From the NCBI GenBank assembly GCA_030428705.1, contig JAUIDI010000006.1, positions 62,001-126,000 of the forward strand: a stretch of DNA of 64,000 nt, written 5' to 3'. Each line of letters starts with the position of its first letter. Within the stretch, counting starts at the first letter, position 1. Below, piece after piece: positions 43,877 through 62,343 of this stretch. Below the pieces are notes generated by a model. It did no database searches. It was given only the letters and a program-made list of their open reading frames with translations, and was not told the DNA's origin. Source of the DNA: Bacteroidia bacterium. GTDB lineage: Bacteria > Bacteroidota > Bacteroidia > Flavobacteriales > Flavobacteriaceae. Position numbers and translations under genes: made by a program.

Positions 43877-43881
43877 ATATT

Positions 43882-44751: not shown

Positions 44752-45293
44752 ACGTTACCGAAACGAAACTAAAAGGTTGTTTTGTTATTGAACCTACGGT
44801 ATTTACTGATGAACGAGGCTATTTTATGGAATCGTTCAACGCAGTGCGCTTTAATAGGGCTATCGGTAGGGAAGTCGATTTTGTTCAGGATAATCAATCA
44901 TTTTCAACGAAGGGAGTCGTACGTGCGTTACATTACCAAATTGGTGAACATGCCCAGGCAAAGCTTGTTCGGGTACTCTATGGTAAAGTTCTGGATGTTG
45001 CGGTCGATCTACGAAAAGATTCCCCGACTTATGCGGAACATATTGCCATAGAGCTTAGCGATGAAAACAAAAAACAACTTTTTATACCGAAAGGTTTTGC
45101 ACATGGGTTCGTCACTTTGAGTGAAGAAGCCGAGTTTTTCTATAAATGCGATAATTACTACAATAAAGCTTCGGAAGAAGGAATCATCTTCAACGACCCG
45201 ACCTTGAATATTGATTGGAAACTACCTGAAGATAAGCTGATCGTTTCCGAAAAGGACCGGTTTTTACCAACGCTTCAGAAAGCAAGATTATGA
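44748..45293 (+). CDS. rfbC: dTDP-4-dehydrorhamnose 3,5-epimerase
   Basis: This 181-residue cupin-fold epimerase is step three of the dTDP-L-rhamnose pathway. Key parts are [30 protein letters not shown] (catalytic His in ALHYQ) and [22 protein letters not shown]. Start and stop overlap its neighbours by 4 nt each (ATGA), which implies translational coupling within rfbBACD. Confidence 0.97.
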
Positions 45294-46153
45294 AGAACGT
45301 TTTGGTCACCGGGGGGAACGGGCAATTGGCTACTTGCATCAAGGATATCGATTCCAGCACCTCCGAATACCACTTTATCTATGTAGACCTGCCCGAACTG
45401 GATATCACCGACAAGGATAAAGTAAACAGTCTTTTCGAAGCAAATACTATTTCTCACTGCATAAACTGTGCGGCCTATACTGCCGTTGACAAAGCAGAAT
45501 CAGAAAAAGAACTCGCCTATTCGGTCAATGTTACGGGAGCCAAAAATTTGGCCGAGGCCTGTTACGAACATAAGGCTGTAATGATTCAAATTTCAACGGA
45601 CTTTGTTTTTGACGGTAATCAAGGCCGTTTGTATAACGAGAACGACGAAACAAATCCCTTAGGCGTTTATGGGGCCACTAAATGGCAGGGTGAACTGGCC
45701 GTTTCGAAAGCCCTCGAAAGACATTTCGTGTTGAGAACCTCGTGGTTGTATTCCGAATACGCGCACAATTTTGTAAAGACAATGCTGCGCTTGGGGTCGG
45801 AGCGCAATGAATTGAATGTTGTAAGCGACCAAATAGGCACACCGACTTACGCAGGTGACCTTGCCAAGGCCATTTTAAAGATCATACAAGAGGATATCAA
45901 TGAGTATGGCACTTATCACTATAGTAACGAGGGCGTTGCCAGTTGGTACGATTTTGCAAAGGCCATATTTGAAATTGCCGAAATAAATTGCAATGTGCTG
46001 CCGGTAAGGACCGAGGCCTATCCGACTCCGGCAAACCGCCCATCGTTTAGTGCAATGGACAAATCAAAGATTAAAAACATTTTGCAGTTAGAGATACCGT
46101 ATTGGAGGGAGAGTTTGGAAAGGTGTTTAGAGATATTTCATAAAGACAATTAG
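45290..46153 (+). CDS. rfbD: dTDP-4-dehydrorhamnose reductase
   Basis: This 287-residue SDR enzyme carries out the last step to dTDP-L-rhamnose, with NAD(P)H. The dinucleotide site is VTGGNGQLATCI; STDFVFDG and the YGATKWQGE motif give the catalytic Tyr and Lys. NYSNEG-type sequence (HYSNEGVASWYDFAKAI) is typical of RfbD. Completes a full rhamnose pathway in four adjacent genes. Confidence 0.97.
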   Translation: MKNVLVTGGNGQLATCIKDIDSSTSEYHFIYVDLPELDITDKDKVNSLFEANTISHCINCAAYTAVDKAESEKELAYSVNVTGAKNLAEACYEHKAVMIQISTDFVFDGNQGRLYNENDETNPLGVYGATKWQGELAVSKALERHFVLRTSWLYSEYAHNFVKTMLRLGSERNELNVVSDQIGTPTYAGDLAKAILKIIQEDINEYGTYHYSNEGVASWYDFAKAIFEIAEINCNVLPVRTEAYPTPANRPSFSAMDKSKIKNILQLEIPYWRESLERCLEIFHKDN

Positions 46154-46159
46154 AATTAT

Positions 46160-47977
46160 ATGTGTGGAATTGCGGGAATATATTCTAAAAACATTGTTGA
46201 TAGGTTAACGGATCGTATCGAGAAGATGAATTCATCCATTGCACATCGAGGTCCGGATTCGGGTGCACACTATTCGGTCGGCGATAAAATTGCCCTCGGA
46301 CATAGAAGATTGAGCATTATAGACTTAAGGGAAATAGCGAATCAACCAATGCACTCCAATAATGGGGACTTGCATCTTGTTTTTAATGGCGAAATCTACA
46401 ATTTTCAGGAGATAAAAGAACAACTGAATTATCAATTTAAGACAGATTCGGATACCGAGGTTATCTTGGCCGCGGTCCAAGAAAAGGGAATTGATTGGTT
46501 TTTAAAACAATCGAACGGAATGTTCGCTTTTGCACTATATAATTCTAGAACTAAAGAGCTTATTCTTGCAAGGGACAGAATGGGGATAAAACCCTTATTT
46601 TACCATAAGAATGATGACCATTTTATATTTGGGTCCGAAATCAAGGCCATTCTTTCAAGTGGTTTGGTAAGGGCTGAATTCAATGAGTCGGCCGTGGATG
46701 AATATTTGGCCAATAGATATATTCGGGCACCTTACACTTTTTTTGAAAACATTCTTCAGGTTCACCCAGGAACTTACCTGACTTTGAATAGTAATTTATC
46801 CCATACGGAAACTACTTTTTGGGAGCTTCCGAAAAACCAGAATTTTTCTGAAACTTTTGATGAAGAAAAGTTGGAAGATCAATTTGATCAAGAATTGACC
46901 AGGGCCATTAAATACCGATTGATTGCTGACGTACCTTTGGGTACGTACTTAAGCGGGGGCGTCGATTCAAGTTTGATTACCGCTATTACCGCATTGAATA
47001 AAAAAGATAAGGTAAACACCTATACGATTGGGTTTCCTGAAATGAACGAATTCGAATATTCTGAAATAATCGCAGAAAAATATAATACGGAGCATCACGA
47101 AATCTTAATGAAAAAAGAGGACTATATGGGCCGCTGGGAAGAGCTTATCAGATACAAGGATGCTCCTTTAGGAGTACCCAATGAAATCCCTTTGGCAGTA
47201 ATGTCGTCTAAATTAAAAGAGAAGATAACGGTTGTACTTTCAGGGGAAGGAGCGGATGAACTTATGGGTGGTTACGGTAGAATTTTCCGCGCCCCGTTCG
47301 ATTACAAACATGATAAGACAAATCAAACTTTTTACGATTACTTTATTGGTCAATATGAGTATGTACCAAGGGCCATGCGAGACGAATTGATTTCAACCCC
47401 TATTGTCTATCGCAAAGAATTCGATGAGAATATTCAAAAGGATTTTTCAAAATATCGAAATGAGGAAAATGTTTTTCAATTTTTTCATGAATACCATGTA
47501 AAAGGGTTGCTTCAACGGGTTGATATGACAACGATGCAGACTTCGGTAGAGGCACGAGTCCCTTTTTTAGATCATAATTTAATTGAGTTTTCTTATAATA
47601 AAATACCATACGATTTAAAACTAAAATGGAATTCCTCGAAAGCTGAGGAAGAGGCCAAAACAAAAGAATCAAGTAATTATAGCGAGGTTCTAGATACTCC
47701 AAAATATTTATTGCGGAAAGTATCGTACAAATATCTACCCAAAGAAATCATCGAACGAAAAAAAGTGGGGTTTCCAGTACCTTTGACAGATTGGTTTGAG
47801 AACCTTGAAGAAGTGGCCATGGAGTTGCTGATGGACGTTTCTTGGTTAAAAAAAGGGGTGGTCAATGAGCTGGTAGAAAAAAGCAAAATAGAATCTAGGG
47901 CCGGCCAAGTACTATGGATGTTTATTAATATTGAACTCTTTAGAAAATCATATTTTGAGAAAGAGTGGCGATGGTAA
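46160..47977 (+). CDS. asnB: Asparagine synthase (glutamine-hydrolysing)
   Basis: This 605-residue two-domain enzyme has the N-terminal nucleophile Cys 2 (MCGIAGIYS), glutaminase signatures IAHRGPDSG and LVFNGEIYNF, then the synthetase P-loop YLSGGVDSSLI and VVLSGEGADELMGGYGR. In surface-polysaccharide loci such enzymes often amidate uronic acids or make sugar amides rather than serve bulk asparagine synthesis. Its place between rfbD and the tagD-like gene suggests that role, but the sequence cannot decide. Confidence 0.93.
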   Translation: MCGIAGIYSKNIVDRLTDRIEKMNSSIAHRGPDSGAHYSVGDKIALGHRRLSIIDLREIANQPMHSNNGDLHLVFNGEIYNFQEIKEQLNYQFKTDSDTEVILAAVQEKGIDWFLKQSNGMFAFALYNSRTKELILARDRMGIKPLFYHKNDDHFIFGSEIKAILSSGLVRAEFNESAVDEYLANRYIRAPYTFFENILQVHPGTYLTLNSNLSHTETTFWELPKNQNFSETFDEEKLEDQFDQELTRAIKYRLIADVPLGTYLSGGVDSSLITAITALNKKDKVNTYTIGFPEMNEFEYSEIIAEKYNTEHHEILMKKEDYMGRWEELIRYKDAPLGVPNEIPLAVMSSKLKEKITVVLSGEGADELMGGYGRIFRAPFDYKHDKTNQTFYDYFIGQYEYVPRAMRDELISTPIVYRKEFDENIQKDFSKYRNEENVFQFFHEYHVKGLLQRVDMTTMQTSVEARVPFLDHNLIEFSYNKIPYDLKLKWNSSKAEEEAKTKESSNYSEVLDTPKYLLRKVSYKYLPKEIIERKKVGFPVPLTDWFENLEEVAMELLMDVSWLKKGVVNELVEKSKIESRAGQVLWMFINIELFRKSYFEKEWRW

Positions 47978-47992
47978 CCAAAAGAATATATC

Positions 47993-48433
47993 ATGTTTAA
48001 AAGAGGAGACGAAAAATTAGTAGTAGGGTATACCTCGGGAGTTTATGACCTGTTCCATATTGGGCATTTAAATTTGTTAAAGAATGCGAAGGGACTTTGT
48101 GACAAACTTATTGTTGGGGTAACGAGTGATGAATTGGTGGCCTACAAGAACAAAAAGGCCATAATACCGCATCAAGAGCGTATGGAGATTGTACGAAATA
48201 TTAAACATGTAGATTCGGTCGTCCCTCAGAACGATATGGATAAGTTCAAGATGTGGCAAAGGCTCAAATTCGATGTTATGTTCGTGGGAGATGATTGGTT
48301 CGAAACTGAAAAGTGGCAAGATTTGGATGCACAATTCAAGGAAGTTGGGGTGAAAATCATTTACTTTCCGTATACAAAAGGCACCTCATCAACCTTGATT
48401 AATCAAACTTTGAAAGACTTGCGTACAAAATAA
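47993..48433 (+). CDS. Glycerol-3-phosphate cytidylyltransferase-like (TagD-like) enzyme
   Basis: The 146-residue nucleotidyltransferase is close to TagD/GCT, which makes CDP-glycerol from CTP and glycerol 3-phosphate. The HxGH motif is in GVYDLFHIGHLNLLKNAKG. The second signature is TKGTSSTLI, in the place of RTxGISTT. Length equals TagD (~130 residues) and lacks the extra domains of FAD or CoA enzymes. The TagF-like gene two ORFs downstream uses CDP-glycerol, which supports the substrate; other alcohol phosphates remain possible. Confidence 0.88.
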   Translation: MFKRGDEKLVVGYTSGVYDLFHIGHLNLLKNAKGLCDKLIVGVTSDELVAYKNKKAIIPHQERMEIVRNIKHVDSVVPQNDMDKFKMWQRLKFDVMFVGDDWFETEKWQDLDAQFKEVGVKIIYFPYTKGTSSTLINQTLKDLRTK

Positions 48434-48467
48434 ATGTAGTAAATAGATTCGAAATTTGAGTTTTAAA

Positions 48468-49676
48468 ATGCTGCCATCTCTATTTTACAAATTGATACGT
48501 AAAGTCGGCCCTTGTCTTGTACTCATTGTGGTCTTATCTACCGAAAGCTGTGCCGAGAAACATGGTACTTATTTTGAATTTTTTTCAAATCCGTTAAATG
48601 ATCGGGTGTCCATCGACTATGAGCTTTCAAGCTATAATGAAGACCAAAAAAAGTTTGTTACATCGACATATTCAAAAAACATAGATCCAAAAAGAACCGC
48701 ATTAGTAATAATAGATTTATGGCCGCCAAAGTTTTTGGATTCGCTAACAATAAAATATATAAATCCATTGATCAAAGAGGTAGACAGTCTGGGGATGAAA
48801 ATTATATATTCTCCCTCCAGCGGTCCGTTAAATCGGCATTTGGAAATACTAGATGATGGTATTTTCTTTTTTAATCAAGATATGATGGACAAATATCTTT
48901 TGGATAACAATATCGAAAATCTAATTTATGTGGGTTATGATACCCTGTATTGTGTCTTGGACAAACCCAATGGAATATTCTCATACCTAGCTCGAAACGG
49001 CCATGAAATAGAAATGTTCGCCTTAGATATCGGTCTTTTGTCGTCAACCGCTGAAATGAAAACAATGGCCATTGAATTATTGAAGAAAAATAGAATTGGG
49101 TTCATTAAAAACTGCAAGATAAAGGCACCAAAAAATTTTCCGGAGAATACCTTAACCGATGTTATGGCTAAAGTTCAAAATGAAACCAAATCGGGATCTC
49201 ATTTTGCTATAATTTTTAAGAAAGATACTATAAGTCAAGAGTTTAATGAATTCAAGCAAAAACTGGTCGAGAACAATATCGATTATGCCGAAGTTGTTGA
49301 AAATAAAATGATATACCACGGACAAATGATTCCACCGCATAAATTCATCAGGGTACTTAGAAGCGGCCAGTTCGGTAACATCTATTATGCGGGATATCAT
49401 ATCAACAATGAAATTCTATGGAGTGATTTTGGTCTTATTACCTTATATATTAAACTCAGGTATAATAAAGTACCTCTGCCAAGGCTCTATGTACTTAATG
49501 ACTTGAGTTTTGCCGTTGCCTCCGATGGAATTTCACCGGAAATGGAAAAGTCCACGATTATTAACCACTACCATGGTCTGAACAATATTATGAGTTCCAC
49601 ATTGTTGGAAGAGACAGAAAAGCAAACGGATTCATCTCAAACTGGCCCATCCACAGAAAGCACAACCAACAACTAA
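48468..49676 (+). CDS. Exported isochorismatase-fold hydrolase-like protein
   Basis: The 402-residue protein has an N-terminal hydrophobic segment ending ESC (a weak lipobox, Cys 28). Residues ~75-210 resemble the isochorismatase/cysteine hydrolase fold: RTALVIIDLWPP holds the first catalytic Asp (83) and NLIYVGYDTLYCVLDKPNG gives the Cys (162) in the usual loop. I do not see the expected catalytic Lys with confidence. The last ~190 residues are unrecognised and end in a Ser/Thr/Gln-rich tail. ATG 48468 is preferred to an in-frame TTG 12 nt earlier. An exported member between TagD-like and TagF-like genes is unusual; activity unknown. Confidence 0.75.
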   Translation: MLPSLFYKLIRKVGPCLVLIVVLSTESCAEKHGTYFEFFSNPLNDRVSIDYELSSYNEDQKKFVTSTYSKNIDPKRTALVIIDLWPPKFLDSLTIKYINPLIKEVDSLGMKIIYSPSSGPLNRHLEILDDGIFFFNQDMMDKYLLDNNIENLIYVGYDTLYCVLDKPNGIFSYLARNGHEIEMFALDIGLLSSTAEMKTMAIELLKKNRIGFIKNCKIKAPKNFPENTLTDVMAKVQNETKSGSHFAIIFKKDTISQEFNEFKQKLVENNIDYAEVVENKMIYHGQMIPPHKFIRVLRSGQFGNIYYAGYHINNEILWSDFGLITLYIKLRYNKVPLPRLYVLNDLSFAVASDGISPEMEKSTIINHYHGLNNIMSSTLLEETEKQTDSSQTGPSTESTTNN

Positions 49677-49695
49677 CTCTAAAAAAATACCAATA

Positions 49696-50883
49696 TTGTC
49701 CCGTATTCTAAAATACGTATTGTTCGTCTTTTTTCTACCGCTCTGGTGGTTGCAAAGATTAGTGCCTCGGAATAGGAACGTTTGGGTTTTTGGAGCTTGG
49801 TATGGCAATCGGTATTCCGATAACAGTAGGTATCTTTATGAATATGTTCGCAAGCATCATCCCGAAATTAGGACGGTATGGTTAACAAGAGATGTCCATA
49901 TCAAAGATTCCATTAATCAAAAAGGTGGGACTGCTTTTTTGACAAATAGCCTGAAAGGAATTGTGTATAGCCTGAAAGCAAAGAATGTCCTTATCAGTTC
50001 AGGCAAAAGAGATGTGAACCCGCTATTTATCAATGGCTCAAATTGGATTCAACTATGGCATGGTAGCCCTGCTAAAAAAATAGGATTGGATGATAGATAC
50101 TCCAATTCGAACTCCTTTTTTCAGCAAAAAATAGTAAAACCTATTTTCCCTTTTTTGTCCGAGTTCACATACTATCGAATTGCATCAAATTCGCCAATAT
50201 TTTCAAAGATTCTTTCCTCTGCCTTCGGCGCGCCCTTATCAAGAATCATGGAAACAGGTACTCCAAGAAATGATATTTTTTATTCTAAAAAAGAGGATGA
50301 TTTTAATAAAAGTCTTCGTAAAAAATATAAGGGTTGTAGATTGATATATTATTTACCCACTTTTAGGGATTTTGAAGGGGCGAAAAGTCTATTTACTACA
50401 AGTGATTATGATGAGCCTAAATTAAAGGCATTTCTAGAGGGGCAAAACATGGTATTAGTAAGTAAAGGGCATTATGTGGATAATCGACTTGCAAATGAAA
50501 GTTCTGATTCGAACGGTCGGTTGATTCATTTGGCCGACAAAGAAGTAAGCGACATTAATTTAATGCTAAAAGATGCTGATTTACTGATTACGGACTATTC
50601 CAGTGCCTACTACGATTTTTTGCTTACAGAGCGACCAATTATTTTTGCGGCATTCGACCTAAAAGAATATTTAGCAGGATCTCGTGAAATGTATTTTAAA
50701 TATGAAGATATAGTTGCAGGGCCCATTGTAAAAGATTGGTCTTCACTTTTGGGAAGTTTAGAAACGATTTGGACAGATCAACATTTCAAAAAGTTGATTA
50801 AGGAAAAAAACACCCTATTCAATAAATATCACGATGCAGATAATTCGAAGCGGGTCTTTGAGAAGATTCATGCACTAAAATGA
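49696..50883 (+). CDS. CDP-glycerol glycerophosphotransferase family protein (TagF/TagB-like)
   Basis: This 395-residue protein of the Glyphos_transf family transfers glycerol phosphate (or a related alcohol phosphate) from a CDP donor. Signatures: IQLWHGSPAKKIGLDD (catalytic His), GTPRNDIF, LPTFRD, and ITDYSSAYYDFLLTERPIIFAAFDLKEY. A hydrophobic N-terminus (YVLFVFFLPLWWLQ) suits membrane association. The start appears to be TTG 49696: no in-frame ATG is present upstream or near. Such enzymes build wall teichoic acids in Gram-positive bacteria and glycerol-phosphate capsules in some Gram-negatives. Last gene of the forward arm. Confidence 0.9.
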   Translation: MSRILKYVLFVFFLPLWWLQRLVPRNRNVWVFGAWYGNRYSDNSRYLYEYVRKHHPEIRTVWLTRDVHIKDSINQKGGTAFLTNSLKGIVYSLKAKNVLISSGKRDVNPLFINGSNWIQLWHGSPAKKIGLDDRYSNSNSFFQQKIVKPIFPFLSEFTYYRIASNSPIFSKILSSAFGAPLSRIMETGTPRNDIFYSKKEDDFNKSLRKKYKGCRLIYYLPTFRDFEGAKSLFTTSDYDEPKLKAFLEGQNMVLVSKGHYVDNRLANESSDSNGRLIHLADKEVSDINLMLKDADLLITDYSSAYYDFLLTERPIIFAAFDLKEYLAGSREMYFKYEDIVAGPIVKDWSSLLGSLETIWTDQHFKKLIKEKNTLFNKYHDADNSKRVFEKIHALK

Positions 50884-50942
50884 TTTCTGCCGATTCGATT
50901 AAATACTGACATTCGAGACCTAAAGACTTTGGGATTACACCG

Positions 50943-51364
50943 TTAAATTTTTCTTCCCAACACAATATGCTCCCGGCTTTCACACGTGTTTACCACCTCA
51001 ATGTTGAAGTATTCGGGCATTTTCGTTAAAAGGGCTACATCAAAAACATGATGGTGCAAGACCCTGTTTTGTCTTTGTGATACAAATAATTTTCACCGCT
51101 CTTAATCGTTCCTTCCCAGAGTGTCGTATTTGAAAAGTTACAGCCATCTAGGCCATTAATAACCTTAGAGATTGGAACAAAACCGTCGTTGCGAAAAAGT
51201 CCGCTAGGACCTCCGATTTCCAGTCCTGATGTGTTGGCGAACAAATGTTGAACCGATTCAAGGTCCGGAATCCGTTCGGGATTCAATTTTGCCATTACCT
51301 TTTTGAATGCATATCCAACTCCTTTTTCGTTCAATACTTTAAAAATCTTGCCCAGTTTTGTCAT
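50943..51364 (-). pseudogene. Deleted SAM-methyltransferase pseudogene
   Basis: Reading from ATG 51364, the first ~110 residues match the start of a known methyltransferase family (FANTSGLEIGGPSGLFR, then CNFSNTTLWEGTI). This breaks off near 51075. In another frame the final 37 residues of the same family resume directly (LHHHVFDVALLTKMPEYFNI, ending HIVLGRKI, stop at 50943-50945). About 100 middle residues, including most of the Rossmann core, are missing. The natural explanation is an internal deletion with frameshift, leaving a dead gene. It lies on the strand opposite to its neighbours, at the junction between two blocks of the locus. Confidence 0.82.
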
Positions 51365-51469
51365 TGTATTTTCGATATGGTTTGACAAAGATACGATTGC
51401 CAAGGTTAAAGAAGTTTTTATTTATCCATGATTTATCCGCTCTGATAATTTACCACGATTTGCATTGTG

Positions 51470-51477
51470 TATCTTTG
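51470..51477 (+). promoter_or_regulatory. Promoter -7 element (TATCTTTG) of MBL-fold gene
   Basis: This perfect TAnnTTTG match ends 23 nt before the ATG at 51501, which fixes that start over an in-frame ATG at 51465. Confidence 0.65.
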
Positions 51478-51500
51478 GAGTTCTTATCTGTGGCATTAAA

Positions 51501-52418
51501 ATGGCAAAAAAGATTATAGGAATTTTCTTTTTTTTGAGCTTGTGGTCTTGTTCGATCATGGAAACTGGGCAAGATATTCTTGATATCAAGGACTTTCCCG
51601 GCCGTACCGATGATTTTTCCCTATGGCAAATGGAGCCTTTTCGGGAAGAAGTACAAATGGGCTATCTCTTAAGGACCGACGATGGTAATATTATTGTTGT
51701 CGATGGTGGAGGCGTTGTCACCGCTCCGGTATTGGAAGGTCACATTGTCCAACTTGGGGGCATTGTACACACATGGGTCTTGACCCACCCGCATTTGGAT
51801 CATATTGGCGCTTTTTTAGAGGTCGTAAAAAACCAAAAGGTCAAAATCGAACGAATTGCCCATGTACCTTTGCCCGAAGTATGGGTAAGGCAAAACGAGC
51901 CTAATACGAGTGACCTACACAAACAATATATGAATGTAGTTGCTTTATTGAACGGTGAGAAAATTGCAATGAAAATAGGTGATACCCTGAGTCTGGGTAA
52001 GGGAGTTCAGCTTAGGGTAATCGGAGCGTTCAATGAACGTATTGTCCGGAATGCGGTCAACAATTCCTCAATGGTGTTTCGAGTGGAGAGCAAGTCGAAA
52101 TCGGTACTGTTTCTTGGTGATTTGGGTATCGAGGGGGGCAGAACTTTGTTGGCCAATACGGATTCAGACTTGGTGAAAGCCGATTATGTGCAAATGGCAC
52201 ATCATGGACAGCATGGTGTCGACCTTGATTTTTATAGGGCAGTAGGTGCCAAATATGCTTTATGGCCGACCCCGAAATGGTTATGGGAAAATCGAGCGGA
52301 CGGACAAGGCTATAATACGGGAAACTTCAAGACCTTTGAGGTGCGGGTCTGGATGGACGAATTGGGAATCAAAAAAAACTATGTTTCCGGTCTTGACGGA
52401 ACGATACAAATTGATTGA
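51501..52418 (+). CDS. Metallo-beta-lactamase-fold lipoprotein
   Basis: The 305-residue protein has a lipoprotein signal (IIGIFFFLSLWSC, Cys 16). The MBL metal motif HxHxDH is in LTHPHLDHIGAF; further ligands are in LFLGDLG and MAHHGQHG. The order and spacing resemble ComEC/Rec2-type MBL domains rather than beta-lactamases. A periplasm-facing phosphodiesterase or hydrolase acting on the glycan or its lipid carrier is possible, but the substrate is not known. Confidence 0.85.
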   Translation: MAKKIIGIFFFLSLWSCSIMETGQDILDIKDFPGRTDDFSLWQMEPFREEVQMGYLLRTDDGNIIVVDGGGVVTAPVLEGHIVQLGGIVHTWVLTHPHLDHIGAFLEVVKNQKVKIERIAHVPLPEVWVRQNEPNTSDLHKQYMNVVALLNGEKIAMKIGDTLSLGKGVQLRVIGAFNERIVRNAVNNSSMVFRVESKSKSVLFLGDLGIEGGRTLLANTDSDLVKADYVQMAHHGQHGVDLDFYRAVGAKYALWPTPKWLWENRADGQGYNTGNFKTFEVRVWMDELGIKKNYVSGLDGTIQID

Positions 52419-52537
52419 ACTTTAAAGTGCAAAAATACATAATCTACTGGTTTGGAAAGGAAATTCAATTGTAAGGACGTCCATTATCTCGAACTTCTTA
52501 TTTTGTATTTCTTACTTTTCAAGCCACAAACCTATAA

Positions 52538-53953
52538 ATGCCAACTGTATCCAAGAATATTTTCTGGTCAACGCTAACCTCGGCCCTGCAGCTCTATACG
52601 GGTAGTGTTGTCTTCATCGTATTGGCCAAGCTTATGGATATCGAAGAATTCGGTATTCTGAGTTTTGGTTTCTCCTTGGCCGCCTTGGTGGCAATAGCCT
52701 CCGATTTCGGGTTTTCGTTGATGATCATGAAAGACTATCCGCAACAGGAAACCGGGGAACGTGCCAATTATTTGGGCAATAGCCTAATGGCCAAGCTGGT
52801 CCTGTCACTTGGCAGCAGTCTTATTTTTTGCGTATATCTCTTTGGATTTTATAAAGGGGATTGGCTTTTGGTAGGAGGCTTATATACGCTTATTGCCGTT
52901 GCGCAATCGTTCGTTACCTATCTTCAAGCGTTATTGCGTATCGAGAACCGATTTCATAAATACACCGAAACGGTGGCTATCTACGCCTTAGCGGTTACAC
53001 TTTGCGTGCTGGTGTATTGGCGGTTTAGGATTTCGTTGTTGCAATTGGTCTGGGCGCTTCTTGTCTGTCGGATCGTACAATTGGTCTGGGCGTTTTTTTT
53101 GAATCGAAAGACTTTAATCGGGTTTTCTTTCGACAGGCATAAAATCAAAGGACTTTTGATAGGCAGTTGGTCTTTTGGACTCCATATGCTATTGGGCATT
53201 TTTTATTTCATGGTCGACACCCAGATTATATCGCTGTACCTCGGTGCGGAAGAAGTTGCACTGTACCAGTCGGTATTTCGAATTGTCTTGATTTTGTTGA
53301 TGTTCTCCGATATCGTTTCCAGTGTACTGTTACCATACCTGTCCTTTAAGTTTTACAAACGGGAGGATATTTCCCAACACGTATCCAAAATCTTTTTATA
53401 CCTTTTTATTATCGGATGTTCATTATTCTTAGTGTTCACTGCGTTTGACACCAAAATTCTTGAAATACTCTATACGCCCGAATATTTGAGTGCCTCGGTA
53501 TTGGTGTTGCCGTTTTCAATTGTAATTATACTACGTACCGTATCGGCGTTGTTGGGGAATATTTTGACGATTTCCGACAGGCAGACCTATCGTGTACTTA
53601 CAGTTGGAGTTTCGTTGGTGGTGAGCCTTGTTTTGAACGTGGTTTTCATACCGAGACACGGCATTTTATCCGCGGCTTGGATCAGTGTAATCGTGCATTT
53701 GGTACTTTTTGGTATGTATTTTTATTACAGCAAACAAGAAATACCTTCCTTACAGGTCTTGGGAGCTTCTAATGTAATCATATTTTTGACCACGGTCCTC
53801 ATTTATATTGCCATTCATGTTTTGACCAATGGAAGCTATGCCGTAATTGGTTTAGGGGTTGTTTTTTGGGTTGGTATAGTTTATTTCGTTATGAGGAGAG
53901 ACCAAAACTATACCTTTTTCAAACAGATACTTGGCGAAAAAGGGGTCGATTAA
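52538..53953 (+). CDS. Wzx-like polysaccharide flippase
   Basis: This 471-residue integral membrane protein has about 12-14 helices and belongs to the polysaccharide transport/MOP superfamily. The N-terminus VSKNIFWSTLTSALQLYTGSV and the block LAKLMDIEEFGILSFGFSLAAL are typical. It would move the undecaprenyl-linked repeat unit across the inner membrane for Wzy. A one-mismatch -7 element (TACTTTTC, 52513-52520) precedes the ATG by 17 nt. Converges on the fusion gene with only 5 nt between stops. Confidence 0.9.
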   Translation: MPTVSKNIFWSTLTSALQLYTGSVVFIVLAKLMDIEEFGILSFGFSLAALVAIASDFGFSLMIMKDYPQQETGERANYLGNSLMAKLVLSLGSSLIFCVYLFGFYKGDWLLVGGLYTLIAVAQSFVTYLQALLRIENRFHKYTETVAIYALAVTLCVLVYWRFRISLLQLVWALLVCRIVQLVWAFFLNRKTLIGFSFDRHKIKGLLIGSWSFGLHMLLGIFYFMVDTQIISLYLGAEEVALYQSVFRIVLILLMFSDIVSSVLLPYLSFKFYKREDISQHVSKIFLYLFIIGCSLFLVFTAFDTKILEILYTPEYLSASVLVLPFSIVIILRTVSALLGNILTISDRQTYRVLTVGVSLVVSLVLNVVFIPRHGILSAAWISVIVHLVLFGMYFYYSKQEIPSLQVLGASNVIIFLTTVLIYIAIHVLTNGSYAVIGLGVVFWVGIVYFVMRRDQNYTFFKQILGEKGVD

Positions 53954-53958
53954 CTCGA

Positions 53959-56922
53959 CTATCTTGGTTCAGGATCAAATATCCAATTGTCCGCGTACAT
54001 ACCATAGACAATACCGATTTCATTTTCTAGCACGTATTTTTCGTCTTTGCCAGGTTCTACATTTACTTGGTATACGTAAACTTTGATATTATTTCTTCTA
54101 AGTTGATTGAGTAGTTTTTTTTGAGCAGGAATGTTGGTACGAGGTATCGCAACAAATTTTACATTCTTATTTTTCAAATAAGTGATTTTATCACCCTTTA
54201 TTTGGCTCAACGGAACCGTTGAAATAATACCTTCGATTCCGTTCCGAATGGCTGATTCTAAAGAGTCATGAGTAAATAACTCCATCATTAGTCTTTCTTT
54301 GTCTACGAATTGGTTTGCGAAAGTTAGTGGCTTATTTGTCTTGTCGGTTATCAAGATGGCATCAGGATGCTCGGCAAACCATTGATTTATTCCCTTAATA
54401 TCCAATGACGAATACTTGCCATAGATTTTATGTTTTTTGAATTCAGTAAGAGTAACTGGAACATCTTCCTTATAATTGGTTTGTTTTGACCAATGACCCC
54501 AATCATGCGATGCGACAAATTTACCATCGGAGGTTTCAATAATATCCAATTCAAAATAACGAAAACCTTTAGCATAGCTAGAGTCGAGGGCTTCTTTTGT
54601 ATTTGTGTACTTAATGCCATTGAGTTCTCCTCCTGCGTGTGCTATGAATCTATCGTTTGATTCCAAATATTCTTCAACGGGTCTGGATAAATAACGTTCT
54701 GTATTTTGAACATCTATTGGATAATCTAAAACTTTATGTATTGAAGCAGCATCGATTTCTTCATTAATAGTGCCATTCAAATTATGCATGATATACGCTT
54801 CTTGATGCTTTAGTTTAGCAAGCTTATTGAACCCCATAAGTTTAAGTTCCTTGGCAACAGCATTAAGTTTTTTGGCGGCAGAATCATGGACCAGAATTAG
54901 AAAGGGCACTTTATTTTTTAGTAGTGTTTTTAAAGTTTTGATGAATTCATTGACTTCGTCACTTTCTTGATAGGTGTCAAAAGTTTTGAATTCATAATCC
55001 GTGAAATTGTTAAGGCAAATTATAGTCAGTCCTCGACCGATTATCTCTTTTTTGTCCTTTAATTTAAAGTAGCTGTTTCTTAGTGTATGATAGCCGTTGC
55101 TACTAAGTACTATATTATCCGCAGTTTTGGCTTCCAGAATTTTTTCGAGAAGCTCGACATCTGTTTTTTTAAAAGTTAGATGCCTCTTATCCTTTTTCGT
55201 CAAGGCAAATCCTAATGGCCCTTTTAAGGCGGCATATAAAATACCTTTTGACATATATAAGTCTAAGTAATTCGTTTTTGGGGTTCTTCTATATGCAATT
55301 TTTTCAAAAGGAATCTCAAAACTGTCATATGCTCTCATCTGATTATCGAAAATGACTCTACGACAGAATTTGTCTTCAGGAATATTGCTTGAAAAGCAAA
55401 GTAATCCATCGTCATTTTTAATCTCGAATCCAAACCCTTCGTCTGTTACCTCGATAGAAAAGCCCTCATCACAAACAATACTTTGTAGTGCAGAATTATT
55501 GAGCTGTGTCAATTGCTTCATATTCTTTATTAAGAAAGAATTTTTATCCTCGAATTCTATAAAGTCAGTCAAAAACTTGGCATTGTGTTTAAGTTCTGCA
55601 CCTTGTAAGATTATTTTGGGAATATCTATTTGTGAAATAATTTCATCCTTTGGAAATTCAAAATTTTGTTTTTTGGCGTTTGTCAACAAAAATAGGGATC
55701 GCTCACTATTTTTATCCAGAATGGGAGGTTTGCCCATGAATAGATGGTCTGGAAAAATGTAGAAAACTGTCTCAGATAGCATGTTTTCTTTTTCTAAAAA
55801 AGAAATTAAGTCACCTATAAGATAATCGGTTGCCGCAATCATGGTTTCAAGTTCGCTATTCTTTTCTCCCACAATTTTGGCCATCCGTGCATCATATGTT
55901 CCATTGGGGAAATGAGTAGAAATCGTAGATAAGAATAAACCAAATGGGCGTCGCGAATCTTTTTTAATGAGTAACTCTTTTTTAAACTCTTTGAATAGAT
56001 CCTTATCATGAATACCCCATGGAACACTTTCATATCTTGTTTCAAAGTCCTTTTCTGATTTAACGACGAACCCTAGAGTGCTTAACATGTCATCGATACC
56101 CGAAAACTCCTTCTTCCCGATAAAATATTCAAGGTCATAATCATATTCTTTGAATACATCTGCAATAGTTGTCAACTTATTTTGATAATTATTCTGGAAC
56201 GCACTATTGCCATCTATCCCAAAATAACCGGGCATACCCGTTACCATAGTATAAATTGAAGCTGAGGTCCAATCACTTCCTGTGGATGGATTTAATTCAT
56301 AAAAAGTATTGCTCTGTACCAAGCGGGTCAAATTTGGAGTTAACTCTTTTAAGTCGTTTTCTAGATAATCTTTTTCAAAAGATTCTAGACAAATCACTAC
56401 TACATTTTTCTTTTTTGAACTTTTGTCTATTTCAATGGCATTTTTTAAGACATAGTCATCGGGATTGATATCCAAACTTTTCAGTGCTTCTTCAAATGAA
56501 GCACTGCCCGCAAACTTCAATTTTAGGGTATCATAGGCATTGTTGAGAATTCCACCGTTGAAGCCCATAATAACGAACCCCGCCAATAAAAGACCAATGG
56601 GTATTATTTTGTTCGCTAACTGTGTGCGAACAACTTTTCCCAAAAAGTGAATAAGCAGTGTTGCCAACAGCAATGCAAGAATTATGAACAGAAGCTCGGT
56701 GCCGAAAAAATCGGAAACCGATGTAGCATCTTTTAAACTAAAGTTTTCATAGAAACGGTAGTCGGCGATGTTTCCGGTGAGGATTACCGAACTGAGTTGA
56801 ACGGTAAATAAAATCCCGAAAATAAGCGACAATGCAAGAGCAAGTATTTTATTACCAATCGGAACAAAAGACCTCAATAGTACGAGTACCAAAAGCAAAC
56901 ATGCCAATTGCAGGAATTCCAT
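53959..56922 (-). CDS. LtaS-like phosphoglycerol transferase / ILEI-like domain / GDPD-like fusion
   Basis: The 987-residue protein has ~4 membrane helices (1-125). A sulfatase-fold domain of the LtaS/OpgB type follows at 172-455: VVVICLESFEKDYL with E180, TGSDWTSAS with probable nucleophile T219, and FPDHLF with D392 and H393. Residues ~600-718 (IIGRGLTIICLNNF, FKTFDTYQ, FLILVHDSAAKKL, MGFNKLAKLKHQEAYIM) resemble the ILEI/PANDER carbohydrate-binding-like domain. Residues 757-985 are GDPD-like: FIAHAGGELNG (H762), FELDIIETSDGKFVASHDW (E791, D793, H806, D807). LtaS/OpgB enzymes move phosphoglycerol from phosphatidylglycerol to a polymer, and GDPD enzymes cut glycerophosphodiesters. Such a fusion would both add and trim glycerol phosphate on a periplasmic glycan (inference). 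Last gene of the reverse-arm operon. Confidence 0.85.
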   Translation of the reverse strand: MEFLQLACLLLVLVLLRSFVPIGNKILALALSLIFGILFTVQLSSVILTGNIADYRFYENFSLKDATSVSDFFGTELLFIILALLLATLLIHFLGKVVRTQLANKIIPIGLLLAGFVIMGFNGGILNNAYDTLKLKFAGSASFEEALKSLDINPDDYVLKNAIEIDKSSKKKNVVVICLESFEKDYLENDLKELTPNLTRLVQSNTFYELNPSTGSDWTSASIYTMVTGMPGYFGIDGNSAFQNNYQNKLTTIADVFKEYDYDLEYFIGKKEFSGIDDMLSTLGFVVKSEKDFETRYESVPWGIHDKDLFKEFKKELLIKKDSRRPFGLFLSTISTHFPNGTYDARMAKIVGEKNSELETMIAATDYLIGDLISFLEKENMLSETVFYIFPDHLFMGKPPILDKNSERSLFLLTNAKKQNFEFPKDEIISQIDIPKIILQGAELKHNAKFLTDFIEFEDKNSFLIKNMKQLTQLNNSALQSIVCDEGFSIEVTDEGFGFEIKNDDGLLCFSSNIPEDKFCRRVIFDNQMRAYDSFEIPFEKIAYRRTPKTNYLDLYMSKGILYAALKGPLGFALTKKDKRHLTFKKTDVELLEKILEAKTADNIVLSSNGYHTLRNSYFKLKDKKEIIGRGLTIICLNNFTDYEFKTFDTYQESDEVNEFIKTLKTLLKNKVPFLILVHDSAAKKLNAVAKELKLMGFNKLAKLKHQEAYIMHNLNGTINEEIDAASIHKVLDYPIDVQNTERYLSRPVEEYLESNDRFIAHAGGELNGIKYTNTKEALDSSYAKGFRYFELDIIETSDGKFVASHDWGHWSKQTNYKEDVPVTLTEFKKHKIYGKYSSLDIKGINQWFAEHPDAILITDKTNKPLTFANQFVDKERLMMELFTHDSLESAIRNGIEGIISTVPLSQIKGDKITYLKNKNVKFVAIPRTNIPAQKKLLNQLRRNNIKVYVYQVNVEPGKDEKYVLENEIGIVYGMYADNWIFDPEPR

Positions 56923-56937
56923 ATACTTTGAGAACTA

Positions 56938-58074
56938 TTAGTGCTTATTCCAAACCACCCGGTTCACATAATCGACATACGATAGAATGATACGCACGAC
57001 CTTTTCGCTGACATTGGGCATACTGTAATCGCCAACAAGGCGAAAGGTGCGCTCAGGGTCTCTTTTCTGGGCCTCCAAAGCGATTAGTCCTTGTAAGATG
57101 CGTTCAGAACTCAAACCGACCATCATGACCGAAGCTTCCTCCATGGCCTCGGGTCGTTCGTGCGCCTCCCGGATGTTGAGCGCCCTGAAATTCAATATTG
57201 ACGACTCTTCCGAAATTGTTCCACTGTCAGAGAGTACCGCAAATGCATTGCATTGCAATGCATTGTAATCGGTAAAGCCCATGGGTTTCATAAGCTGGAT
57301 CGCTTCGTGGGTCTTTAGTCCTTTTGAATCGAGCATATTTCTTGTACGTGGGTGGGTCGAAACAATGATAGGGTAGCCATATTTCTCGGCAATGGCATTT
57401 AACGAATCGATAAGCCCCTCAAAGTTTTTCGAGGCGCTTATGTTTTCTTCACGGTGTGACGACACCACAAAATATTCATTTTTTTTCAGTTTGAGATCTT
57501 CAAGGATGTTGGATTTGCCGATTTTTTCCTTGAAATGGTCCAACACCTCGAACATTGGGCTTCCGGTTTTGATAATGCGATCTGCGGGCAATCCCTCGCG
57601 GAGCAAATATTCGCGGGCAATGTCGCTATAGGTGAGATTGACATCTGAAATATGATCGACAATCTTGCGGTTGGTCTCTTCTGGTACCCGCTGATCGAAG
57701 CAGCGGTTACCGGCTTCCATATGAAAGATCGGGATTTTTCTTTTTTTTGCGGGAATGGCACAGAGGCATGAATTGGTATCCCCAAGCACCAAGAAAGCAT
57801 CGGGACTTATTTCTTCCAACAAAGGGTCGATTTTGATCAAGATATTGCCGACCGTCTCCGTCGCGTTCTTTCCCGCGGCGTTAAGAAAATGGTCCGGTTT
57901 GCGAATACCAAGGTCATCGAAGAATATCTCGTTCAATTCATAATCATAATTCTGACCGGTATGGACCAAGGTGTGTTCAATGGCCTCATTCTTGTCTAAG
58001 GCACTTAATACACGTGCAAGTCTTATAATTTCGGGCCGTGTACCCACAACCGTAATTACTTTTAGTTTTTTCAA
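56938..58074 (-). CDS. fnlC: UDP-N-acetyl-L-talosamine/GlcNAc 2-epimerase (FnlC/CapG, WecB family)
   Basis: This 378-residue non-hydrolysing 2-epimerase has VVGTRPEIIRLARVL at the N-terminus, LVLGDTNSCLCAIPAKK, HMEAGNRCFDQRVPEETNRK, and the nucleotide-site SDSGTISEESSIL. It follows FnlA/CapE and FnlB/CapF homologues, so the expected substrate is UDP-2-acetamido-2,6-dideoxy-L-talose, giving UDP-L-FucNAc. The WecB reaction alone would be the alternative. The start is TTG 58074; no ATG is available in frame. The upstream gap carries a heptanucleotide repeat tract. Confidence 0.93.
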   Translation of the reverse strand: MKKLKVITVVGTRPEIIRLARVLSALDKNEAIEHTLVHTGQNYDYELNEIFFDDLGIRKPDHFLNAAGKNATETVGNILIKIDPLLEEISPDAFLVLGDTNSCLCAIPAKKRKIPIFHMEAGNRCFDQRVPEETNRKIVDHISDVNLTYSDIAREYLLREGLPADRIIKTGSPMFEVLDHFKEKIGKSNILEDLKLKKNEYFVVSSHREENISASKNFEGLIDSLNAIAEKYGYPIIVSTHPRTRNMLDSKGLKTHEAIQLMKPMGFTDYNALQCNAFAVLSDSGTISEESSILNFRALNIREAHERPEAMEEASVMMVGLSSERILQGLIALEAQKRDPERTFRLVGDYSMPNVSEKVVRIILSYVDYVNRVVWNKH

Positions 58075-58177
58075 AATATATTTTAATTAGAATTTACGTT
58101 GCAAAATTATTTTTATCCAGTGTTCAACAAAAAAGCTGAAGCTCATGTGTCAAGTTCAAACGCAAGATTGTTGTTTT

Positions 58178-58233
58178 CCAACATCCAACATCCAACATCC
58201 AACATCCAACATCCAACATCCAACATCCAACAC
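58178..58233. repeat. Heptanucleotide tandem repeat (CCAACAT x7 plus partial)
   Basis: Seven perfect 7-bp units cover 58178-58226, followed by a degenerate unit CCAACAC. The tract lies in the 166-bp gap between fnlB and fnlC, 7 nt from the fnlB stop and 104 nt upstream of the fnlC start. Uniform units imply recent slippage and a copy number that varies between cells or strains. Confidence 0.95.
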
Positions 58234-58240
58234 CCAGCCA

Positions 58241-59380
58241 TCATACTTCTTCAAAATAAGTATCCGCATCTTGTGGGTCATAAGGCTCATTGATCCAAAA
58301 CAGGGTTATCAATTCCTCTTCTCCAATGTTTTTGATGTTATGGGTATACCAAATGGGCATATCGACATAAGCGGGTTCTTTTCCATCGAGATAATAATCG
58401 ATTACTTCATCGGTACCAATTTTACGCAATTGAATCAAGGCTTTTCCGCTGATGACTGCAAAACGCTCGGCCTTTCGTGTATGATAATGATTGCCCCTTG
58501 TAATACCAGGAACGGTGGTCGAGAATGAGAATTGTCCGCTCGTTTGTGTTCGGGCGATTTCCACAAAACTCCCTCTCGGGTCGGTATGTTTGGTATATTT
58601 AACCGGATAATGCGTTTCAGGAACATAACATCGGAAGGTATTGAACAAAGCCTTTTCGAAAGGTTGCTCTAAATTTGGGAATACACCATTCTCCATATAA
58701 TCGATTTTATAGTTTTTTAATAGCGTCAAAATTTCCGATACCTTTTTATGGTAATTTGGAGGAATGTCCAATTGAGAGCTATTCTTTCCTATAGAACGGG
58801 TCTCGGCACTCCCTTTGATGACTTCTATAAAATGCTGTACGAGCTCATTGACATAGATGAGTCCGATTTCCCCGTCGTTGATTATGGTCGCTTCTTCATT
58901 ACGAGCAATCTTGTGACAAAAAGTTGCCACCACGGAATTATAGTTGGGTTTGCCAAATGGACCGAATACATTGGGTATTGTTAGAGAAGTAAAAGAACCT
59001 CCATTGGAAGCGGCCCAAACCATAAATTTTTCCTTCCCTTCTTTTTTTGATTTTCCGTATAGATTGTCCTTTTCCTCCTGTGTGGAGGAAGAAAAAAGGA
59101 TGTGCGGTTTGACATTTTTATTTTCACAGGCTGATATTAACTTCGAGACCAAGTCGATATTGGTATTGTAAATAACATTTTGGTCTTCATGACGGTTCAT
59201 CGCGGCCAAATGCATGATGACATCGCACTGCGAAACGAAATTTTCCAAAATCGAACTTTTTGAAAAAGCGTTTCGGTCAAAAGGAATAAGCTCAAAACTT
59301 TCGTCAAGGGCAAGCCTTCGATAGAGGTGGTCGCCTACAAATCCGTTTTGTCCTGTGATACCTATTTTTTGTTTTTTCAT
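58241..59380 (-). CDS. fnlB: UDP-2-acetamido-2,6-dideoxy-hexos-4-ulose reductase/epimerase (FnlB/CapF)
   Basis: The 379-residue bifunctional protein has an SDR domain (residues 1-240: GITGQNGFVGDHLYRRL, VIMHLAAMNRHED, LYGKSKKEGKEKF with Tyr and Lys) and a C-terminal cupin (255-379: HTDPRGSFVEIARTQTSG, TRGNHYHTRKAERFAVISG, with metal His residues). CapF/WbjC proteins epimerise C3 (cupin) and reduce C4 (SDR) to give UDP-6-deoxy-L-TalNAc. It lies between FnlA and FnlC homologues and completes the FucNAc pathway. Confidence 0.94.
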   Translation of the reverse strand: MKKQKIGITGQNGFVGDHLYRRLALDESFELIPFDRNAFSKSSILENFVSQCDVIMHLAAMNRHEDQNVIYNTNIDLVSKLISACENKNVKPHILFSSSTQEEKDNLYGKSKKEGKEKFMVWAASNGGSFTSLTIPNVFGPFGKPNYNSVVATFCHKIARNEEATIINDGEIGLIYVNELVQHFIEVIKGSAETRSIGKNSSQLDIPPNYHKKVSEILTLLKNYKIDYMENGVFPNLEQPFEKALFNTFRCYVPETHYPVKYTKHTDPRGSFVEIARTQTSGQFSFSTTVPGITRGNHYHTRKAERFAVISGKALIQLRKIGTDEVIDYYLDGKEPAYVDMPIWYTHNIKNIGEEELITLFWINEPYDPQDADTYFEEV

Positions 59381-59384
59381 TGAA

Positions 59385-59813
59385 TTACCATTGTGCGGAC
59401 CATCGATCCGTGGGATATCTAAAATCGTCTTTTTGTGATTCGTTCAGCGAAAAGTTCGAAAACACCATGAGTCTTGAATCCTCAGCTTGCGCCTTGAACC
59501 CATTGGCATAACCTCCGGGAACTTCCAAAACAAAAGGATCGGCCTCGTTCAACGTAAAACTTTCGCATTGAAGGACGATGGAAGGATTCTCAAAATCGTC
59601 TATTTTAACGAGGTTGAGCAGAAAGCTTCCCGAATGGCAATAAAACCATTTTTTTTCTTCCTTATGGGCCTGCCATGCCCTTATTATATCGGTTGAACTC
59701 GGAGCTATCTCATAAAACCGAACGACCTGCCCCATATCAAAGTTATTGAAAAAACGCAACGTGCCCCGCTCATCGACATGGTCCGATCCATTTATTATTC
59801 GAGCCTTTTCCAC
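59385..59813 (-). CDS. WxcM-like cupin (sugar isomerase/epimerase family)
   Basis: The 142-residue cupin of the FdtA/WxcM group contains DERGTLRFFNNFDMGQVVRFY, a helix with IRAWQAHKEEKKWFYC (the usual RGxHAH position is changed to AWQAHK), GSFLLNLV and PGGYANGFKA. Family members isomerise dTDP-4-keto-6-deoxy sugars, but this one sits between fnlA and fnlB, so it may act on the UDP-sugar or have a support role. The start is GTG 59813, immediately after the TAA of fnlA with no gap, which implies coupled translation. Confidence 0.82.
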   Translation of the reverse strand: MEKARIINGSDHVDERGTLRFFNNFDMGQVVRFYEIAPSSTDIIRAWQAHKEEKKWFYCHSGSFLLNLVKIDDFENPSIVLQCESFTLNEADPFVLEVPGGYANGFKAQAEDSRLMVFSNFSLNESQKDDFRYPTDRWSAQW

Positions 59814-62342: not shown

Positions 62343-62343
62343 A

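Follow-up and report, generated by a model that had tools for sequence, protein, structure and literature searches.

A predicted membrane-anchored LtaS/OpgB-ILEI-GDPD fusion and an exchangeable AsnB-TagD-TagF cassette in a surface-polysaccharide locus of Flavobacteriaceae

Overview of the locus

Our analysis concerns a 64,000-nucleotide stretch of DNA from a Bacteroidia bacterium of the family Flavobacteriaceae (JAUIDI010000006.1, positions 62,001–126,000; hereafter the window), together with flanking DNA of the same genome, which a program estimates to be 99.99% complete. The window contains a surface-polysaccharide locus whose genes encode, in order, a Wzz-like protein, RmlBACD, AsnB, a TagD-like cytidylyltransferase, an exported-looking protein, a TagF-like transferase, a metallo-β-lactamase-fold protein, the flippase Wzx and a fusion protein that joins an LtaS/OpgB-type domain to a glycerophosphodiester phosphodiesterase (GDPD) domain. 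WecB/WbjC/FdtA/WbjB-like genes, a Wzy/ligase-like protein and a protein like family 2 glycosyltransferases (GT2) follow. The locus probably makes a Wzx/Wzy-type, O-antigen-like surface polysaccharide.

A first-pass annotation had proposed a teichoic-acid-like glycerol-phosphate system here, built on the TagD-like, TagF-like and fusion open reading frames at 47993, 49696 and 53959. All three are found at these coordinates, and they match PF01467, PF04464 and PF00884 plus PF03009, respectively. The best explanation of the data, and one to which we give a little more credence than doubt, is that the polysaccharide receives phosphate groups from two separable modules, one formed by the AsnB-TagD-TagF genes and the other by the fusion protein.

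Domains and active sites of the fusion protein

The fusion gene (53959–56922, reverse strand) encodes 987 residues, which we analyzed with Pfam and NCBIfam models, an alignment of seven proteins, AlphaFold2 (AF2) models and fold searches. A predicted membrane part (residues ~1–150) is followed by an LtaS/OpgB-type sulfatase-fold domain (~165–480), a small β domain (487–585), an ILEI/POMGnT1-stem-like domain (~600–735) and a GDPD TIM barrel (~750–987). The corresponding Pfam scores are 73 bits for PF00884, 29.3 bits for ILEI (PF15711, cut-off 27) and 36.2 bits for GDPD (PF03009, cut-off 23.6). The AF2 model places the membrane helices within residues 2–149, and a crude hydropathy analysis concurs; the C-terminal part modeled by itself has a pLDDT of 78.4. 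The earlier description of a protein combining LtaS/OpgB-type and GDPD domains holds, given the conserved active-site residues and the GDPD fold, but it had overlooked the ILEI domain.

The transferase part resembles LtaS and OpgB (MdoB) in its predicted membrane anchor, its extracytoplasmic sulfatase-fold domain and its E, T, H and D-H residues. Among the best Foldseek matches, beyond which other families may match as well, LtaS is the top fold family: model residues 141–479 align with LtaS, LtaP and the LtaS-like protein 3lxq at Z 23.6–24.4, and the next match shown is at 19.9 or lower. Glu180, Thr219, His337, Asp392 and His393 are invariant in the aligned proteins (seven of the eight fusions in hand, L006 being omitted because its gene is split by frame breaks), and the Glu, His and Asp-His positions align with Listeria LtaP. 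Unlike LtaS and OpgB, the window protein is fused to ILEI and GDPD domains, and its match to the OpgB model PRK12363, 102 bits over residues 1–398, lies below the equivalog cut-off of 572. The transferase may be comparable to the phosphoglycerol transferase GacH as well.

By fold, the ILEI part is closest to the POMGnT1 stem, at Z 15.8 and an rmsd of 2.4 over 130 of 150 residues, and then to FAM3 (ILEI) proteins at Z 13.0–14.0. Three of the matched POMGnT1 stem entries have partial titles with the words ‘in complex with Gl...’ or ‘Ma...’. In contrast to these proteins, the window domain is bacterial, presumably periplasmic and attached to a GDPD domain. From the modeled fold, we consider it probably glycan-binding.

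The C-terminal domain shares with GlpQ and other GDPD enzymes, the teichoicases, its TIM barrel (Z up to 17.3, for 3no3; B. subtilis GlpQ, 14.9) and the H/E/D/H residues. His762, Glu791, Asp793, His806 and Lys861 are invariant in the seven fusions and in ten GDPD domains of wider origin. The usual GDPD pattern has an H-R-G loop and an acidic residue before the lysine (E-x-K), whereas the fusion has H-A-G-G and Thr859-Asp860-Lys861, besides being joined to a transferase. When a profile of the ten GDPD domains was run against the PDB, the only sequences retrieved at E ≤0.01 were three of lysoplasmalogen-specific phospholipase D (E 0.0034–0.0035), which likewise have H-A-G-G. The forms in which relatives of the protein occur, described below, support a single unit that would transfer glycerol phosphate from phosphatidylglycerol and hydrolyze phosphodiesters.

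Distribution of the fusion and its split forms

We searched 299 genomes of the family with the fusion protein (E ≤1e-10), and 48 of them matched. The triple fusion occurs in eight genomes (in two pieces in G234), and six genomes have a transferase-GDPD protein without ILEI (open frames of 745–776 residues). Stand-alone ILEI-GDPD proteins are encoded in 19 genomes, three of which hold the fusion too, including the window's own genome (contig C15). In one further genome, G033, a lone GDPD domain and a sulfatase match lie apart, and in 17 the match is confined to the sulfatase part. Locus L002 was taken to belong to G222 (also L010/L041) and L004 to G247 (also L011/L057), so each of these was counted once. 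The recurrence of the same gene orders and domain orders across genomes is more than chance. This fused and split, or Rosetta-stone, pattern is our main evidence that glycerophosphate transfer to a glycan and its hydrolysis belong together. A phylum-wide search (198 genomes, E ≤1e-20) returned the window's own genome only, from a sample so sparse that it says little about range.

Sixteen loci with stand-alone ILEI-GDPD genes were retrieved; in four the gene lies between GH3 and DUF6909 genes, and in 12 it lies beside a YaiO-type barrel gene. Polysaccharide genes accompany ILEI-GDPD in all seven loci that were read in wider context. Two of these (L045, L046) are of the GH3/DUF6909 type and are rhamnose polysaccharide loci like that of the window. 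The other five (L039, L040, L047, L056, L058), which comprise three of the 12 plus second copies from the window's genome and from G222, have a YaiO-type gene, after which come genes for an LtaS-like protein with a sulfatase domain and for a PgaC-like GT2.

These contexts bear on an alternative reading of the GDPD domain, namely that it is a lipid-directed, lysophospholipase D-like enzyme acting on lyso-phosphatidylglycerol or other glycerophosphodiesters rather than an editor of glycans. The H-A-G-G phospholipases retrieved by the profile are consistent with such a role, as are the presence of S. aureus lysophosphatidylglycerol phospholipase D among the fold matches (Z 13.3) and the location of some fusions away from polysaccharide genes. 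However, transferase and GDPD are separated by the ILEI domain, which by fold is closest to the POMGnT1 stem, and the stand-alone ILEI-GDPD genes keep company with polysaccharide genes in the seven of seven loci read in context. We regard a lipid substrate as rather unlikely.

Two observations on the split forms may be added. The contig C15 set of the window's genome (L039, 9004–18289) is a second, unlinked one; besides ILEI-GDPD and the YaiO-type barrel it encodes an LtaS-like protein that has a sulfatase domain and weakly matches TPR, a PgaC-like GT2 and a HEAT protein. In L048 (6990–11528), the transferase-GDPD gene is flanked by what appear by eye to be genes of the ABC exporter Wzm and Wzt.

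The AsnB-TagD-TagF cassette

AsnB, TagD, the exported-looking protein and TagF (46160–50883) form a separable, swapped-in cassette. The loci L002 (Flavobacteriaceae NBU2977) and L006 (Maribacter halichondriae) have kept the rest of the locus, including the fusion, without these four genes; other genes shared by L002 and the window are 76–97% identical, and the fusion 58%. In both loci the slot holds a methyltransferase gene (561 residues in L002, frame-broken in L006) and a second methyltransferase gene. The window retains both ends of the second gene (50944–51068 and 51062–51403) and has lost ~360 bp of its middle, whereas the gene is longer in L002 and L006; by comparison with the intact L002 copy (PF08241), the remnant beside the cassette (50944–51403, reverse strand) is an S-adenosylmethionine-dependent methyltransferase pseudogene. 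The GC content of the cassette is 0.354–0.383, against 0.40–0.46 for 13 of the 18 other locus genes; the remaining five are lower, among them the fusion (0.352). Frame breaks in L006 (6996–12954) affect its FdtA-like, WbjC-like and fusion genes and are perhaps sequencing errors.

The first cassette gene (46160–47977, forward strand) encodes a 605-residue AsnB-type glutamine amidotransferase (TIGR01536, 438 bits; cut-off 267) with Cys2 and the SGGVDS loop in place. We considered whether it is just the cell's asparagine synthase and rejected this, as four further genes of the genome pass the TIGR01536 cut-off. Its clade (E ≤1e-150) is present in 8 of the 299 genomes and in all eight directly adjoins a TagD of the window's kind. 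The downstream partner of the pair varies. It is the window's TagF in this genome (G000), TagF of other types with 25–28% identity in G006, G080, G184, G268 and G289, and a CDP-alcohol-phosphotransferase family gene (PF01066) in L066 and, judged by likeness, in L067. Two more TagDs (L064 and L065, 47–50% identity) have no adjoining AsnB; a LicD gene (PF04991) is present in L064 and a look-alike in L065. TagDs of this kind thus stand beside three kinds of phospho-alcohol transferase, and where AsnB is paired with them it probably has a bearing on their substrate.

The TagD-like gene itself (47993–48433, forward strand) encodes a putative cytidylyltransferase of 146 residues (PF01467, 81.6 bits; cut-off 21) with the HxGH nucleotidyltransferase motif, here HIGH. 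So much of its earlier name is borne out, but its match to the glycerol-3-phosphate cytidylyltransferase model TIGR01518 reaches 90 bits against a cut-off of 165.4. Moreover, none of four glycerol-type patterns (TYGT-D, D[ED]FN, PE--W-QK, RT--[IV]ST) is found in the protein or its seven close relatives, whereas all four are found in each of B. subtilis TagD (1coz), L068, L069, L072 and L073. Judged by its sequence, the enzyme is not recognizable as a glycerol-3-phosphate enzyme, and ‘TagD-like’ is a loose label. The proteins of L069 (4320–5672), L072 (8539–9903) and L073 (7734–9092) are long, with a glycerol-type TagD domain at the C terminus; by eye, the front half of the L069 protein resembles GpsA, or glycerol-3-phosphate dehydrogenase, and the other two are of similar length. 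A phylum-wide TagD search (198 genomes, E ≤1e-25) found only the window's genome and G032, in a sparse sample that says little about range.

The simplest chemistry for the pair would be amidation of a phospho-hydroxy-acid, for example phosphoglycerate, followed by activation with CTP to give CDP-glyceramide. We put this forward tentatively, as a minority possibility. The donor made by the cassette is taken to be a phospho- or phosphono-alcohol in activated form, for which CDP-glyceramide may be a better candidate than CDP-glycerol; CDP-glycerol itself we consider doubtful. A D-glyceramide 2-phosphate O-polysaccharide from Providencia alcalifaciens O22 is named in the title of a study (Ovchinnikova 2012, as cited in PMC6222762). 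Going by that description of the glycan, its phosphodiester-linked phosphoglycerate amide may correspond to the product proposed for AsnB-TagD.

Alternatively, AsnB and TagD could be neighbors with unrelated functions, AsnB acting on a uronic acid in the glycan while CDP-glycerol or CDP-ethanolamine is made by TagD. AsnB-type amidotransferases in O-antigen loci can amidate uronic acids, and a UXS-like gene was seen by eye just outside the window. Ethanolamine-phosphate cytidylyltransferase also leads the PDB matches of TagD by a hair (68.7 bits versus 67.8 for 1coz). Yet the two genes are adjacent in eight of eight genomes though the flippases and transferases around them differ, and we think independent functions have only a modest chance of being correct.

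The remaining cassette gene (48456–49676, forward strand) lies between those for TagD and TagF. Its product is probably exported, as suggested by an N-terminal hydrophobic stretch, and has no assigned family: it has no Pfam match, and its PDB matches, to STAS domains at E 0.0054 or weaker, are not informative. The hydrophobic stretch precedes an invariant cysteine, although the strict lipobox pattern is not matched. Asp87 and Cys166 fall by eye into an isochorismatase-like D...C pattern. Relatives with 40–43% identity (L059, L060, L061) are present in three of the five AsnB-TagD loci that have other TagF types.

The TagF clade and its phosphonate neighbors

The TagF-like gene (49696–50883, forward strand) encodes a single-domain PF04464 transferase of 395 residues (230 bits; cut-off 22.1) that keeps both conserved histidine motifs, WHG and KGH, and scores 134 bits against TarF (NF041712, cut-off 550). 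It is the only PF04464 match in the whole genome (E ≤0.001), so there is no separate TagB-type primase of the kind by which wall teichoic acid is recognized, and the idea of a teichoic-acid-like poly(glycerol phosphate) is not upheld. A parallel is found in the TagF-like capsule polymerases of Gram-negative bacteria (Litschko et al. 2018; PMC5974469). As in those systems, a TagF-like enzyme with predicted phosphodiester chemistry lies in a Gram-negative surface-polysaccharide locus, but the window has a single 395-residue PF04464 domain and a locus of the Wzx/Wzy type.

The window TagF clusters with those of L008, L054 and L055 (59–62% identity, support 0.999). In these three loci the gene sits behind genes for phosphoenolpyruvate (PEP) mutase(-cytidylyltransferase), phosphonopyruvate decarboxylase and an iron-dependent alcohol dehydrogenase (L054, 9852–14608; L055, 5501–10254; L008, 19134–22905), within rhamnose polysaccharide loci in the case of L054 and L055. 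The L055 enzymes score 414.7 bits for PEP mutase (NCBIfam cut-off 319.6) and 472.5 for phosphonopyruvate decarboxylase (cut-off 312.5), while the dehydrogenase is below all NCBIfam cut-offs and above that of Pfam. Of the L008 PEP mutase, the locus covers no more than the C-terminal 106 residues. The occurrence of TagF orthologues behind phosphonate genes there, and behind AsnB-TagD in the window, points to one transferase type served by two alternative donor modules. From their sequences and neighbors, the TagFs of L008, L054 and L055 are candidate hydroxyethylphosphonate transferases. Their neighbors are of the kind found in the Fom1-type CMP-hydroxyethylphosphonate route; Fom1 is described in PMC6697681. 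The window differs from such a route in having AsnB-TagD in the corresponding slot.

It could still be argued that the group moved by the window's TagF is a phosphonate, namely 2-hydroxyethylphosphonate, or something akin to it, and that TagD is a CMP-phosphonate synthase. In addition to the three orthologues, the C-terminal PYTxGxSST of TagD favors this, being common to 5x3d, an entry that is labeled PEP phosphomutase and that we take to be a Fom1 domain; the N-terminal domain of the L055 PEP mutase matches the same entry at 212 bits. Nevertheless, TagD is only 31–34% identical to Fom1-type domains, and no protein of the window's genome exceeds the PEP mutase cut-off (best PF13714 match 28.3 bits versus 31.5), a broad family that passes its own cut-off in 9 of 14 control genomes. 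Phosphonate transfer in the window is, in our judgment, very unlikely.

In an order-wide TagF search (395 genomes, E ≤1e-25), 15 genomes matched, and apart from the window's own none exceeded 33% identity; the context read was that of G080 (L059). A recurring pair was seen elsewhere, consisting of a cytidylyltransferase of ~210 residues and a nearby PF04464 gene whose open frame spans ~350 or 610–640 residues (G082 contig C3, L070 8241–10745; also G026, G032, G151, G162, G197, G203, G212, G231 and G258).

Relation of the two modules

The first-pass annotation treated all of these genes as one system, in which TagD and TagF build up or add glycerol phosphate from CDP-glycerol, the LtaS domain adds it from phosphatidylglycerol and GDPD edits both. 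Several observations are compatible with this. The genes share one locus, both histidine motifs of TagF are intact, and L008 combines a TagF orthologue with the fusion in the same locus. Furthermore, the stereochemistry of GlpQ-type enzymes (PMC7086022) would permit GDPD to cut a CDP-glycerol-derived product, and the periplasmic region of the fusion is a divergent allele in the cassette-bearing genome.

Against a single system, the fusion is present without TagD and TagF in L002 and L006, and G061 and G082, which have near orthologues of the window TagF, are absent from the 48 fusion-matching genomes. In L008 the TagF gene lies behind phosphonate genes, not TagD. Co-occurrence of the fusion with PF04464 genes, which had been suggested as a check, is not significant: PF04464 matches (E ≤0.001) are found in 4 of the 8 triple-fusion genomes compared with 80 of 299 overall (Fisher p = 0.22), and AsnB-TagD in 1 of 8. 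In judging whether loci of relatives have TagD and TagF, the short contigs L003 and L005 were set aside, and L004 and L007 end inside rmlD, with no TagD or TagF as far as there. Together with the missing glycerol signature of TagD, these data make a single glycerol-phosphate system improbable. The CDP-glycerol route survives in part, as TagD plus TagF have the architecture of a CDP-alcohol route; the glycerol itself lacks support, given a TagD without the glycerol signature that is tied to AsnB, and TagF orthologues that accompany a phosphonate cassette. It likewise remains likely that phosphate is added by two routes, one in the cytoplasm and one in the periplasm, but not demonstrably within one glycerol-phosphate system.

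Comparing the fusions of the window (53959–56922) and L002 (10001–12955) in blocks of 50 residues, we found 82–96% identity in residues 1–150, 95% in the last 37 residues and 31–72% between. In residues 151–300 and 351–450, the L002 protein is nearer to that of L008 (62–84%) than to the window's (50–68%), so it is the window that holds the odd allele in those stretches.

Other genes of the locus

The set for dTDP-rhamnose is complete, as previously noted, with near full-length Pfam matches for RmlB, RmlA (start near 43879), RmlC and RmlD (42833–46153, forward strand). The Wzz-like protein was named by eye and position and has no Pfam match. A probably exported metallo-β-lactamase-fold protein (51465–52418, forward strand; assigned by Pfam) lacks the strict lipobox pattern; its gene occurs near that for Wzx with or without TagF, namely in L002, L004, L006, L007, L008, L054 (partial) and L055. 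The Wzx-type flippase gene (52538–53953, forward strand; PF01943 and synteny) is convergent with the adjoining fusion gene. WecB-, WbjC-, FdtA- and WbjB-like genes (56938–60818, reverse strand; Pfam and NCBIfam) bear out the presence of N-acetyl-fucosamine-type nucleotide sugar genes of the WbjB/WbjC/WecB type, although the WbjC-like protein scores 291 bits for NF047837, below the cut-off of 500. A Wzy/ligase-like membrane protein (PF04932) and the GT2-like protein, the latter recognized by eye, follow (60975–63210, forward strand). Past the end of the window come a gene for a WecA-like initiating enzyme (PF00953) and, by eye, more genes resembling those for glycosyltransferases.

Discussion

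In the two-module model, the first module would work in the cytoplasm. AsnB would amidate a small phosphorylated hydroxy-acid, TagD would join the product to CMP, and the TagF-like enzyme would move the phospho-alcohol onto the lipid-linked glycan; a neutral amide, for example CDP-glyceramide, is a likelier donor than CDP-glycerol. The second module would work in the periplasm, where the predicted N-terminal helices would anchor the fusion in the membrane. Its LtaS/OpgB-type domain would take glycerol phosphate from phosphatidylglycerol and place it on a glycan held by the ILEI domain, and the GDPD domain would cleave glycerophosphodiesters. One chain would thereby both add such groups and remove or trim them. 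We infer these activities and substrates, the identity of the modified glycan and the action of both active sites on one polymer.

A number of points weigh against this model. The AF2 model of the full-length fusion is only moderate (pLDDT 69.7), and the Thr859-Asp860-Lys861 sequence appears to depart from the usual E-x-K. Not all fusions have polysaccharide genes for neighbors: by eye, those of G285, G012 and G074 (36–39% identity) adjoin apparent thrS and ribosomal-protein genes, that of G168 adjoins apparent pyrG and mnmA, and the transferase-GDPD genes of L049, L050 and L051 lie among housekeeping-type genes. The substrate of AsnB might rather be a uronic acid in the glycan. An important caveat is stereochemical. 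According to PMC7086022, LtaS-type transfer yields sn-glycerol-1-phosphate, and GlpQ-type enzymes cleave sn-glycerol-3-phosphoryl groups only, leaving lipoteichoic-acid-type sn-glycerol-1-phosphate. If the GDPD domain is bound by this stereospecificity, whatever the transferase domain of the same protein makes is out of its reach; if it departs from the GlpQ rule, its specificity differs. Finally, the genome that acquired the cassette is also the one in which the fusion seems to have had its periplasmic part exchanged, or to have changed fast there, so the modules are perhaps more closely linked than we propose, although this is a single genome. The exchange fits a shared glycan substrate, or adaptation to a glycan altered by the cassette.

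The model can be extended, at a level that we regard as speculative and on balance unlikely in full. AsnB-TagD would be a new module for CDP-glyceramide, or another amidated phospho-acid, supplied directly by glycolysis. TagFs of the window's clade would act generally on neutral phospho- and phosphono-alcohols, which they would transfer to surface glycans; in the sister loci they would install 2-hydroxyethylphosphonate, a group that is reported as an ester on marine polysaccharides. The LtaS-ILEI-GDPD protein would write and erase glycerol phosphate, with its periplasmic part swapped as the glycan changes.

In the open-licence literature that we searched, as far as its accessible parts go, we found no LtaS/OpgB-GDPD fusion, AsnB-TagD pairing or TagF-like phosphonate transferase. 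The LtaS/OpgB-ILEI-GDPD architecture and its split forms are the most secure novelty, and the AsnB-TagD pair and the phosphonate-linked TagF clade the most suggestive. Phosphoglycerol transferases and glycerophosphodiesterases have mostly been studied separately. A transferase and a diesterase joined through a glycan-binding-type fold provide a way to test whether one machine writes and erases surface glycans, and AsnB-TagD offers a compact candidate route to an unusual activated phospho-amide.

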